A program made the translations under genes and the position numbers. 64,000 nt of DNA from Adineta ricciae (lineage: Eukaryota; Rotifera; Eurotatoria; Adinetida; Adinetidae), in the NCBI GenBank assembly GCA_905250025.1, contig CAJNOJ010000038.1, forward strand, positions 495,150-559,149, in the 5' to 3' direction. Positions 46,255 to 59,099 of this stretch are shown here, one piece after another (the first letter of the stretch is position 1; each line of letters begins with the position of its first letter). Under the pieces are notes generated by a model. That model made no database searches and was not told the DNA's origin. It saw only the letters and a program-made list of their open reading frames with translations.

Positions 46255-47176
46255 ATGGCTGAAATGAAATCAACGGTTGAGAATCGAATTCAGACCGATC
46301 CACTTGTCATATCGGACTCGTTCGAAGGATATTCACTAACTTATTTCAAGTAAACAAGTATATATTTTCTCATTTGAAAGTATCGGATATTTTTTTAGCT
46401 TACCGTTGCATTATCGCGATGATTTACAGTCTGTTCTCATTCCGTATGGGTTTGTTCAAGATCGTATTGAAGCGTTAGCTAATCAAATATTCGCCGATTG
46501 GCATATTAATCTTCCAGAACAATTGAGTAATTTAATTATTTACATCTAAGCGTTAATAACAAACGTTTTGTTTTCGTCCTTCTAGTTTGTCTATGTGTAT
46601 TAAAAGGCGGTTATCGTTTTTTTTCAGATTTAATTTCCAAAATTCAACTAAACAATCGGTATCTCTCTGTAGGTCAATAACCGTTTATCATTTCTTGTTT
46701 TTTTTCTTCTAGTCTTCATAATTGTCGCAGTTTACCAATGAGTCTAGAATTCATTCGTACACGAAATCAGCCGAATGATCAACTTGAAATTATTGGTTTA
46801 AGCGATTTACATCGTTTGAAAAATCGAAATATTCTGATTATCCAAGACATTATCGATACGGGTAGCCGCGTGGATATATTGAAACAGAAATTAGAACACT
46901 TCCAACCGAAATCTATGCATGTAGTGTCTTTATTTATGAAAAGGCAGTCTGATAAAGCTTGTATTTTCAAACCAGATTATTGTGGTTTTGAAATACCTGA
47001 TCATTTCGTTGTTGGTTATGCATTAGTAAGAAGACAAAAAGCTTGAATTGACTGGTAACATTCGTTATCTTTTGTAGGATCATAATGAATATTTTCGTGA
47101 TTTGGAACATGTTTGTATTTTGAAGGAATCAGTCATGTCAAAATATAAAATCATCGATAAACGTTTTACCGAATGA
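46255..47176 (+). CDS. HPRT1: hypoxanthine-guanine phosphoribosyltransferase
   Basis: Purine salvage enzyme that converts hypoxanthine or guanine plus PRPP to IMP or GMP in the cytosol. Five exons: 46255-46349, 46399-46526, 46586-46658, 46713-47025, 47078-47176; 235 residues (human 218). Motifs: SLTYFNLPLHYRDDL, VLIPYGFVQDRIEALA, ICLCVLKGGYRFFSDL (PPi loop with LKGG), the PRPP loop ILIIQDIIDTGSRV, and PDHFVVGYALDHNEYFRDLE with the base-binding Asp. The acidic pair of the PRPP loop normally reads Glu-Asp; here it is Gln-Asp. Everything else expected for catalysis is present. The N terminus is somewhat longer than in the human protein. Confidence 0.93.
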
Positions 47177-47350: not shown

Positions 47351-49283
47351 ATGAAAGTTGGACGCGAGTTTTTGATATGGGTGTTTGTATTGAATTTAAT
47401 CAAACTTTCATCATCGAAATTCTTCAATTTAACAATGACGATGCCAACTTTAAATAAATCGATCGTAAGGTTCCTACTGATGAGAGAAAATAACGACGAG
47501 ATGTGTTTTTAGAACAATCAGTCTGTTTATATCGCCTTGAAACTGCCAACTGATGAGGAACTATATATAGGTTTGCTAATATTTCTCTTTCGTGGAAGAT
47601 CGCGTTGTGATTATTGCATCTTTAGTTGATTTTCATCCAATAATTAATATTCAACGGGCGAAATTCATAAGCACGTACCTCTGTTCGAAACCTTATCATA
47701 CCGAGGCAAATTTCTGGTTTGTACTTTCAGAACAATTGATAAATAGAATATTTGGAAATCTATAAACTAGGCTGGACACACGAGCCTGTGAATCTGTAGA
47801 TCAATCAGTGTTAATCTACGAATGGTATGAGAGTGTTCCTGTCGTACAATGGCCGAAAGGTTATTTTCTGTTTGATTTTCTGATTGACATTCTGTGAAGT
47901 CGATTTAGACGCTGGTCTTCGCGTTGGAACCAATACTCCATATCGATATGTTGTTGTCAATGTTCACTATCGATCGAGTGACTCGAACGATATCTACGCT
48001 GAGCGAATCACTTTGACACGTCAAAAGTATGAAAGCGTGGAGTAAACGTCTTTGTCGAGTTCTTCATTTATTGTTAGACCAAAGTACGAGATAGGAATGT
48101 ATGATATTATGACAAAAGCATTGAATATTCAAAGTAAATGCAAATTTGGTAACAAATTATCTTTGTGACAATGGTGTTTTAGAGGATCGTGTTGATTTTT
48201 CTTGTCAATATGATTCATCTGAGATGAAAATATTTTCCACATTATTTTCCTCGAATTTTCAAGGTATATTTATTCAACTCCATGTTCGGTAACAATTACT
48301 GGCTAAGAAACTAATTTAGGTAGTGCTGTTTCATTGTATCGCGTACGAAATAATCAAGTACAATCGATTATAAAAGGTATTTTACAAAGAAAGACATTCG
48401 ACGGTGATGCATTCTAATGATATAGGAAATCTTGCTTGGCCGCAAACATTCTATCAGTTATCAAATGTGGCAGATATCAAAGCGGAAGATTACTTGATTG
48501 GTTTGTGTGCATTTGAAAAGCCAATACAAGATCAAATGTTGAAGTATGTATTTCATTGAAACGTTTACCATGTATGATTTCTTCGATGTGTCAGATCTCG
48601 TTATTTCGTCTGCCAACTTACACTGATGTTTTATATCGAGCAAGGAGAGAAAATAACGGCAGAAGGATGTGAACATAACGATTTTTCAAGCATTATTCAA
48701 CGGTAGAATCACTTCGATACATTTTCTACTCTTTATCAGGAATATTTTTAGTTTTCTCCCAGTAAATGCTCATGATACCCCACAAACACTATTCGACATC
48801 AATCCAATGTATCCTAAACTACCACCTAACGAATGGATGCAAAGCCAGCTGAACAAAACACTCTTATCATCACAGTCCTCTGACAATGATACGCAAACTA
48901 TCTACCTGATCTATGCGAATCAGCATCGTTACGACCAATTGATCATTCTCATACACAATCATCCGTTAATATCTATATTTATCATTTGGTTAATCTTGTT
49001 GGTGATTGGATTGGTAGTATTAATGTATGTTATCCATCGAGCACGTCGGATTATCGTATATTCATCGTCGCACATTGCTCGTCCAACATCGGTTACTGTT
49101 GGTGGTGATACAAGTTCTCTGAGTGGATGGTTAACTAAACGGCGATTTCAACAGTATGGAGATGATGATAGTACTGCCAACGTACCATTGACGAGTAAAC
49201 ATCGATGGGCATCCGATACTGAAGGAAGTGATTTATCCGATACAGAAGTTTTTAATGCTAAGAGGGTTGCCCAAAAAAGTTAA
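47351..49283 (+). CDS. PHM-like type I membrane protein lacking most copper ligands
   Basis: Related to the copper type II monooxygenase fold of peptidylglycine alpha-hydroxylating monooxygenase. Eleven exons: 47351-47464, 47513-47570, 47626-47716, 47771-47859, 47909-48026, 48078-48148, 48183-48263, 48320-48376, 48426-48543, 48595-48702, 48752-49283; 478 residues. Signal peptide, then SVYIALKLPTDEELYIVDFH, WLDTRAC, DAGLRVGTNTPYRYVVVNVH, EIGMYDIM, SLYRVRNNQ, WPQTFYQLSNVADIKAEDYL and the Cys of FVCQL follow PHM in order. One membrane helix near the C terminus (IFIIWLILLVIGLVVLMYVI) precedes a cytoplasmic tail. Of the six PHM copper ligands only the His of NVHY remains; the others are Lys, Phe, Ser, Asn and Val. 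The lyase (PAL) domain is absent. It is thus probably not a monooxygenase. Function unknown. Confidence 0.8.
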
Positions 49284-49520
49284 GTTTCACACTTGAAATC
49301 AACCAAAGAACATTTCTATGAGTTCGTTTTCAATAAATAAATCATTTTACTCAGATCACAAATAAATATCTATAAGAGAAACATTCGTACGAATTCATCC
49401 ATCAGCACACAATGAAAGGCGACCTCTACTCATTTAAGTTGCCAGGTGATTCCATTTGAATCATCTGAATGTATGGTGCTTCGCATTTAACAAAATTTCC
49501 TTCTATAAAGAACAAGTACA

Positions 49521-57564: not shown

Positions 57565-59099
57565 CTATTTATTCGTACTGTTGCTCAGATAATTGTAAGA
57601 ATGTCATGACTTACGCACGGAAGTAGCTCTTTTCTTCTTATTTGATTCTAGGCTACTAAAGCACATGTTAAATTAAACACAAAAAAGCTTTATCAAGCAG
57701 ATGGCTATGCGGTCAAAGAGATTCTAAAAGTGATCACACCGCTCTATAAAGCTTTAAGAGATAGTGAGAGTAAAGAATTAGATGACGAAGACGATCTTGA
57801 TCATCGATATCGTTATGCAATGAATGACGACGTAAGTGAAGTTGAAGACAAGTTCGAACTCATTTGAAGATTCTCAATTTGTAGATTGGAACATTGAAAA
57901 CTGCTCGTTCGCTATGTTCAACTATTACTCAGAAAGGTGCTAATCTACATGAACTATTAGGGAAAGAAGTGGAAGCACGAGTGTGTAGATATCTCTATGT
58001 CCATATGTTCTAACGAATTTTTCATGTAGGAATCTCGTCAAGATGTGAAGAATCGGGAGACGGTGCTAACCGATGTCCGAGATGGTATTAAGGAAGCTGA
58101 AAGTGCAGCAAAAGTATGTTTGTTTTCTATCGCATTAAAGAAAAGAAGATGGATTTTGTTTTCTTCATAGATTGAAGTGGCGAAATACGATAAACTAGTC
58201 GCGAATGTTCAAATCGATGAAGTAGCGCTCGATGAGAAGATCGCGAAACGCTTAGAAGAAAAAGATCGTCATCAACGTCGACTGGACATGCTGAAGAGTG
58301 TCAGGTAGTTGAAACACAATCGAAAGCTGCTTTCATAAACATTATCATCGGGCTCTTTTTCACAGACCGTCATTCATGAATGACTTCGAAAAATTCGAAA
58401 CGGAACTCAATGGTCTATATGCAGATTATGTATTGAAATATCGAATCTTATCGTATTTGGAAAAGGAACTAGAGGGACATTTTCGAAATCAACGGGAAAA
58501 GGTTCAAGTAAGTGAGAACGTTCAAACGAACAATCTGGCGAAAATTTCTTTTTTACGAATACGAATAGGAAGTATCACGACACTATATGCAAGCGATTAA
58601 CTCACAGATGACTGAGCAAGATCAACAAAGATTTAGTCGACAATTACAAGAGCATAATGACGACATCGGTGTCCAAAGTGATGAGGAAGATTCGGACGAA
58701 GATGAGTAAGATTGAATTGGAATAAGCACAACAAAGAAAGATTGATCGTCTCTTGGATTTAGTGATGACGAAGATAATGATGACGATGAGGATGAGGAAC
58801 AAGACGATGATGGTATGAATCAAGCACCAACATCCTATGGAAAAAAATTCGGTACTCAGAATACGATTTGACTTGTCTCCTGATGATAAATACTCTTGTA
58901 TTCATTTTTAGCAAATGGTAATGGATATGGTGGCATGACAGGTGATTTAAGCGATGATGACCAGGAAGCACCACGTGGTGGACGAGGCCGAGGCGGTGGA
59001 CATCCTGGTATAGATGATGATGAGAATGTACGAGGTAGACAAAAACAACAACGAAGACAACAACGCGCAACCTTAGATGATGACGATGAGAATTTCTAA
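57565..59099 (+). CDS. CLUAP1: CLUAP1 / IFT38 copy 2, 5'-truncated by the break
   Basis: Exons matching copy 1: 57565-57594 (end of exon 3), 57652-57831, 57885-57980, 58030-58113, 58171-58304, 58366-58507, 58569-58705, 58763-58812, 58912-59099. The first two exons and most of the third are missing because the sequence starts at the N. The remainder is open and correctly spliced. Differences from copy 1 include Leu to Phe, Asp to Glu and Glu to Ala in exon 8, Gly to Asp in exon 6 (SRQDVKNRE) and length changes in the acidic tail. Nothing suggests decay apart from the break itself. Confidence 0.88.

Follow-up and report, generated by a model that had tools for sequence, protein, structure and literature searches.

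Gene structure and family assignment

The analyzed window, a 64,000-nucleotide stretch of the Adineta ricciae genome (C38:495150–559149; the genome comprises 130 Mb in 1033 contigs), contains a PHM-like gene on the forward strand. The features of the gene and its surroundings are as follows.

46738–47046, +: upstream neighbor, HPRT-like last coding exon; related places at C115, C90, and C26
47351–49283, +: whole gene, PHM-like, PAL-less, single-pass membrane protein of 473 aa
47351–47464, 47513–47570, 47626–47716, 47771–47859, 47909–48026, 48078–48133, +: exons 1–6
48183–48263, 48320–48376, 48426–48543, 48595–48702, 48752–49283, +: exons 7–11
47351–47416, +: signal-peptide-like N-terminus, residues 1–22, read from the sequence
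47661–47666, +: Lys70-Phe71, replacing the CuH ligands His107-His108
47965–47967, +: His137, corresponding to His172 (CuH), the sole retained ligand
48248–48256, +: Ser198-Ser199-Asn200, replacing His242-Thr243-His244 (CuM)
48608–48610, +: Val266, replacing Met314 (CuM); Ile in the C115 copy
48966–49034, +: membrane span, approximately residues 369–391 (Kyte-Doolittle 3.32 over 19 residues)
49038–49256, +: inner-tail stretch, residues 393–465, protein-identical in the window and C115 copies
49332–49337, +: AATAAA polyadenylation-like signal, read from the alignment and conserved in C115
49569–50093, +: downstream neighbor, CLUAP1/IFT38-like gene (matched stretches); related places at C115, C90, and C26

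The gene is divided into 11 exons by ten GT..AG introns of 48–56 bases and has no stop codon or frameshift, in agreement with the first-pass annotation of this DNA, which had described it as intact over eleven exons. The encoded protein consists of a signal-peptide-like start, a PHM region extending to approximately residue 289, a stalk, the membrane span, and an inner tail of 81 residues (393–473). When a spliced aligner written for this analysis was given rat PHM alone as input, the nine introns of the PHM domain were recovered with zero frameshifts and zero stops. The predicted end of intron 4 in this alignment was 47908; with this acceptor, the local alignment to PHM became gap-free and the PF01082 score, previously 29.8 bits against a cut-off of 30, reached 38.9 bits. 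For intron 10, the predicted end was 48751, a later AG common to the window and C115 copies, which was chosen because C115 lacks the earlier one. With the acceptors of introns 4 and 10 corrected, the protein has 473 aa, compared with 480 in the naive model. A retrocopy origin was ruled out because the introns occupy the positions found in the PHM family.

The gene belongs to the copper type II ascorbate-dependent monooxygenases (PF01082/PF03712). Residues 24–292 of the 480-aa model matched rat PHM with an E-value of 5e−26, and a profile search with the corrected model exceeded both Pfam cut-offs (PF01082, 38.9 bits; PF03712, 27.8 bits against a cut-off of 23), which bears out the PHM-family relationship behind the fold proposed in the first-pass annotation. 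The corresponding scores were 29.8 and 27.8 bits for the 480-aa model and 41.8 and 28.1 bits for the C115 copy. The reported absence of a PAL domain was also upheld: only about 79 residues separate the PHM region from the membrane span, and a Pfam search of the protein returned no other family at E-values of 1 or below. For comparison, the PAL stretch of the C55 copy matches PAL 3fvz at 6.6e−25. In the stalk of the window gene, no PAL remnant could be shown, as 211, 724, and 1220 of 2000 shuffles reached the scores obtained.

Loss of copper ligands and remodeling of the PHM domain

In the numbering of rat PHM, the window copy has the substitutions H107K, H108F, H242S, H244N, and M314V, and only H172 is kept; the corresponding residues of the window protein are K70, F71, S198, N200, V266, and H137, respectively. 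The positions scored as copper ligands agree with those given in the accessible part of PMC6123673. Alignment to rat PHM thus reproduced the earlier reading of the sequence, in which five of the six ligands were lost, with Lys70 and Phe71 at the His pair of CuA, Ser and Asn at the HTH pair of CuB, Val at the CuB Met, and the third CuA His alone remaining. The same reading had described a gap-free alignment over each ligand region; this is correct at the ligands themselves, but four residues are missing shortly before the former Met. The C115 copy shows the same five ligand losses, with Ile at M314. In a ligand survey for which 14 of 28 candidate sequences were modeled (the window and 13 loci; C359 was left out because of its poor model), one of six ligands was present in the window copy, and all six were present in each of the 11 other well-modeled copies in this genome.

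Of the His residues within the PHM-like domain, only H61 and H137 are common to both copies, and as these form neither an HH nor an HxH pair, relocation of the ligands to other positions was ruled out at the sequence level. The same scarcity of His makes it highly improbable that the protein remains enzymatic with a different metal or through a new site formed by other residues, even though one CuH His is kept and the two copies share five Met residues in the PHM region in addition to Met29 and Met31.

R240, N316, and Y318, which we take to be substrate-holding residues of PHM, have changed to Leu, Gln, and Thr, respectively, in the window and C115 copies alike, and D312 and E313 are also replaced; a search of the open-licence literature found no paper on the substrate-holding role of the first three. 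Meanwhile, Q272 and the WPQ.FY segment, the latter already noted as WPQTFY, are kept in the window copy. These retained residues, together with a topology suitable for a receptor, would fit a decoy or receptor whose PHM pocket binds peptides, glycine-extended or otherwise, but does not hydroxylate them, as had been suggested when the sequence was first read. However, the replaced pocket residues argue against this, as do copper-free PHM crystals, which contained no bound peptide: according to the accessible part of PMC6123673, no peptide was present in apo or CuH-mutant crystals, the authors propose a requirement for both coppers, and substrate binding in solution is seen in CuH mutants that carry the two coppers. 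The changed pocket residues and the peptide-free apo crystals therefore make peptide binding of the amidation type unlikely, and we regard a decoy or receptor role as improbable.

In each copy, the protein has six Cys residues and no others, at positions 77, 94, 183, 249, 267, and 286; these correspond to C114, C131, C227, C293, C315, and C334 of PHM, which presumably pair as three of the five PHM disulfides; the structural Cys are thus unchanged, as first proposed. The absence of C81, C126, and C186 was rejected as a mark of the window gene, since eight copies of the peptidylglycine alpha-amidating monooxygenase (PAM) type lack them too. Rat PHM, with Met314 restored to the wild-type residue, and the 11 six-ligand copies agree at 47 residues; 24 of these, including every one of the five Cys, are retained in the window copy, and 23 have been lost. 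Ligands were lost in five of six cases and other invariant residues in 18 of 41 (Fisher p = 0.085); when the nearest eight copies were used, the values were 5/6 and 38/82 (p = 0.091). This enrichment is not significant and does not prove targeted loss of the ligands; the copper site was lost within a wider remodeling that included the DEMCN.Y strand.

Relationship to PAM-type genes

A midpoint-rooted tree was built from 14 PHM domains, and the program warned of long-branch joins. In this tree, the window copy formed a ten-member group with C115, C12, C49, C55, C107, C319, C333, C299a, and C299b (support 100/98), and rat PHM, C98, C94, and C371 fell outside this group. The inner order of the group was not settled in the tree with rat PHM; in the tree without it, the window/C115 pair joined C12 at 92/96, with a deeper fork at 44/41. 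The stem of the window/C115 pair measured 2.43 and 2.61 changes per column with and without rat PHM, respectively, whereas the other PAM-type branches measured 0.16–0.46 in the tree with rat PHM. After C115, the nearest copies by pairwise score were C12, C333, C319, and C49 (identity 34–38%), and identity was 29% with rat PHM and 24–27% with C98, C94, and C371.

The downstream exons of the eight PAM-type genes were read from frames, unspliced. In C12, C49, C55, and C107, PHM is followed by PAL-like frames and a membrane span; in C319, C333, C299a, and C299b, the span lies within about 400 bases of PHM, leaving no room for PAL. All eight genes, four with and four without PAL, keep the six ligands. 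The first-pass annotation had proposed that the window gene gained its C-terminal membrane anchor, but because it groups with PAM-type genes that all read as membrane-spanning, such a gain is improbable. On the simplest reading, the anchor would be ancestral and PAL would have been lost, and this genome seems to hold a series of forms, from full PAM, through PHM with an anchor and no PAL, to the ligand-free form.

Intron positions 76.0, 95.1, 153.1, 197.2, and 247.1 are exactly common to the window gene, C12, and C319, and three more introns are in phase with, and at most 4 residues away from, those of C319. Most of these positions are also common to soluble-looking PHM copies and therefore support membership of the PHM family rather than of the PAM group. 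Among the 14 modeled sequences, intron 266.1 is confined to the window copy and its C115 counterpart.

The window gene thus resembles membrane PAM in its PHM match over residues 24–292, in the Cys residues that presumably form three of five disulfides, and in having a signal-peptide-like start, one membrane span, and an inner tail; its nearest relatives by score are the PAM-type copies of this genome. It differs from PAM in lacking five of the six ligands, R240, N316, Y318, and PAL and in having the extra intron at 266. The architecture of PHM, short stalk, membrane span, and no PAL is, as read from frames, also that of C319/C333 (L025, L026) and of the tandem C299a/C299b (L028, L029); unlike the window gene, these keep all six ligands, with His and Lys, respectively, at R240. 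The stalk of C319 also differs in containing a remnant of the PAL start (0 of 2000 shuffles reached its score). The altered R240 in C299a/C299b possibly reflects an altered substrate. A further PHM-like locus, C359 (L033), could be modeled only with a frameshift and carries Phe where PHM has H242, which reflects either a misalignment or another degenerate copy.

Locus history

The HPRT-like and CLUAP1-like genes flank the PHM-like gene on both C38 and C115, and at C90 and C26, matches to the two neighbors lie approximately 970 bases apart. At these ohnologous loci, spliced alignment and tblastn detected no trace of a PHM-like gene: the spliced scores were 76 and 59 at C90 (L053) and 56 and 81 at C26 (L054), compared with shuffled maxima of 104 and 83 (20 shuffles each), and tblastn gave one match, at E 5.9. 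The PHM-like gene was either lost from one half of the duplicated genome or arrived later in the other half. A second CLUAP1-like exon copy is present at 57646–57831 of the window (C38:552795–552980); the corresponding stretch next to the PHM-like gene lies about 7.7 kb upstream of it. The flanking-gene copies at C38, C115, C90, and C26 form two closer pairs, which fits the tetraploid layout that the accessible part of PMC5916493 reports for bdelloid rotifers. Comparison of the window and C115 copies showed 94 differences over 1419 coding bases, a divergence greater than the values given there for homologous copies in Adineta (1.4% and ~4%) and far smaller than that for ohnologues (24.9%).

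Constraint on the protein and its inner tail

C115 carries a collinear copy of the window gene with no stop codon, frameshift, or broken splice site under the chosen model. A Nei-Gojobori count between these two copies of one genome gave 43.5 synonymous and 50.5 nonsynonymous differences (dS 0.158, dN 0.047) and a dN/dS ratio of 0.296, with a bootstrap range of 0.20–0.46 computed before the correction of intron 4. By region, the ratio was 0.22 in the PHM domain, 0.62 in the stalk, 1.19 in the membrane span (on seven changes), and 0.042 in the tail (394–466). As controls, the HPRT-like last exon of the same C38/C115 pair gave 0.20 (dS 0.168), and the six-ligand PHM domains gave 0.117 (C107/C55), 0.136 (C319/C333), 0.074 (C98/C94), and 0.30 (tandem C299a/C299b), so that the PHM-domain value of the window gene is higher than those of three of the four six-ligand pairs.

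Residues 393–465 form the longest protein stretch unchanged between the two copies (73 residues). This stretch, which was picked post hoc, contains 0 nonsynonymous and 7 synonymous changes against about 50 and 36 elsewhere (p = 0.0034), and an unchanged run of this length occurred in 158 of 20,000 random placements of 49 changes. The end of the tail is variable: five of the eight residues at 466–473 differ between the copies, and the last seven residues carry four nonsynonymous and no synonymous changes. The tail had no match in this genome outside the window and C115 copies at E-values up to 5. When it was compared with the tails of PAM-type genes, its scores were reached by 35 (C12), 67 (C49), 1363 (C107), 1710 (C55), and 843 (C319) of 2000 shuffles, and hhalign gave a probability of 0.8%. 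Homology with PAM-type tails, hinted at in two of five cases by the shuffles and not borne out by the profile and genome searches, is no more than suggestive.

These data bear on whether the gene is a slowly decaying paralogue, which has lost its enzymatic role and is moving under weak constraint, with its frame still open, towards a pseudogene. The very long stem, the lack of specific targeting of the ligands, the missing gene at C90 and C26, the high ratios in the stalk and, on few changes, in the span, and the variable tail end speak for such a gene; however, both copies are free of disabling changes under the chosen model, the upper bootstrap bound of dN/dS is 0.46, the six Cys are kept, and 73 residues of the tail are unchanged, and we consider continuing decay unlikely. 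A recent decay product, the outcome that would have overturned the first interpretation, is likewise disfavored by the shared ligand losses and the dN/dS of 0.30, on the basis of two copies in one genome. Together with the identity of residues 393–465, these observations favor a constrained pseudoenzyme candidate over recent decay: catalytic residues have been lost and the protein is under constraint, the two copies of this genome differing in the manner of a protein subject to purifying selection, consistent with the conserved intact gene originally proposed.

Possible function of the ligand-free copy

On this evidence, it is likely that the window gene is a pseudoenzyme descended from PAM and that its product probably works as something other than the amidating enzyme. 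Loss of catalytic residues is a common outcome of gene duplication, so the finding is moderately surprising in itself; its value lies in the conserved tail and in the series within one genome from full PAM to the ligand-free form. Judging from sequence, the PHM-type luminal module would enter the secretory route and would neither hold two coppers nor hydroxylate, serving instead as the folded passive or binding part of a type I membrane protein. The accessible part of PMC6123673 describes an apo-PHM structure near that of the holoenzyme and greater flexibility in PHM without copper.

The selected function may reside mainly in the conserved inner tail, in sorting, anchoring, or signaling, a reading to which we give somewhat less than even weight. 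It is drawn by analogy with PAM, which is present in cilia and whose cytosolic region is required for trafficking and dispensable for catalysis, according to the accessible part of PMC6529398. A copy without the chemistry but with the fold and the tail would constitute a natural separation-of-function experiment. More tentatively still, the gene could represent a PAM-derived, copper-free membrane pseudoenzyme, possibly the first described, in which the trafficking or signaling half was kept, the catalytic half became passive, and selection acts mainly on the tail. In the open-licence literature, as represented by titles and the beginnings of abstracts, no PHM or PAM copy without copper ligands appeared among the matches listed. 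MOXD2 (DBH-like), a member of the copper monooxygenase family, has been lost or inactivated in some lineages, as stated in the accessible part of PMC4830563, whereas the window gene has been kept open.
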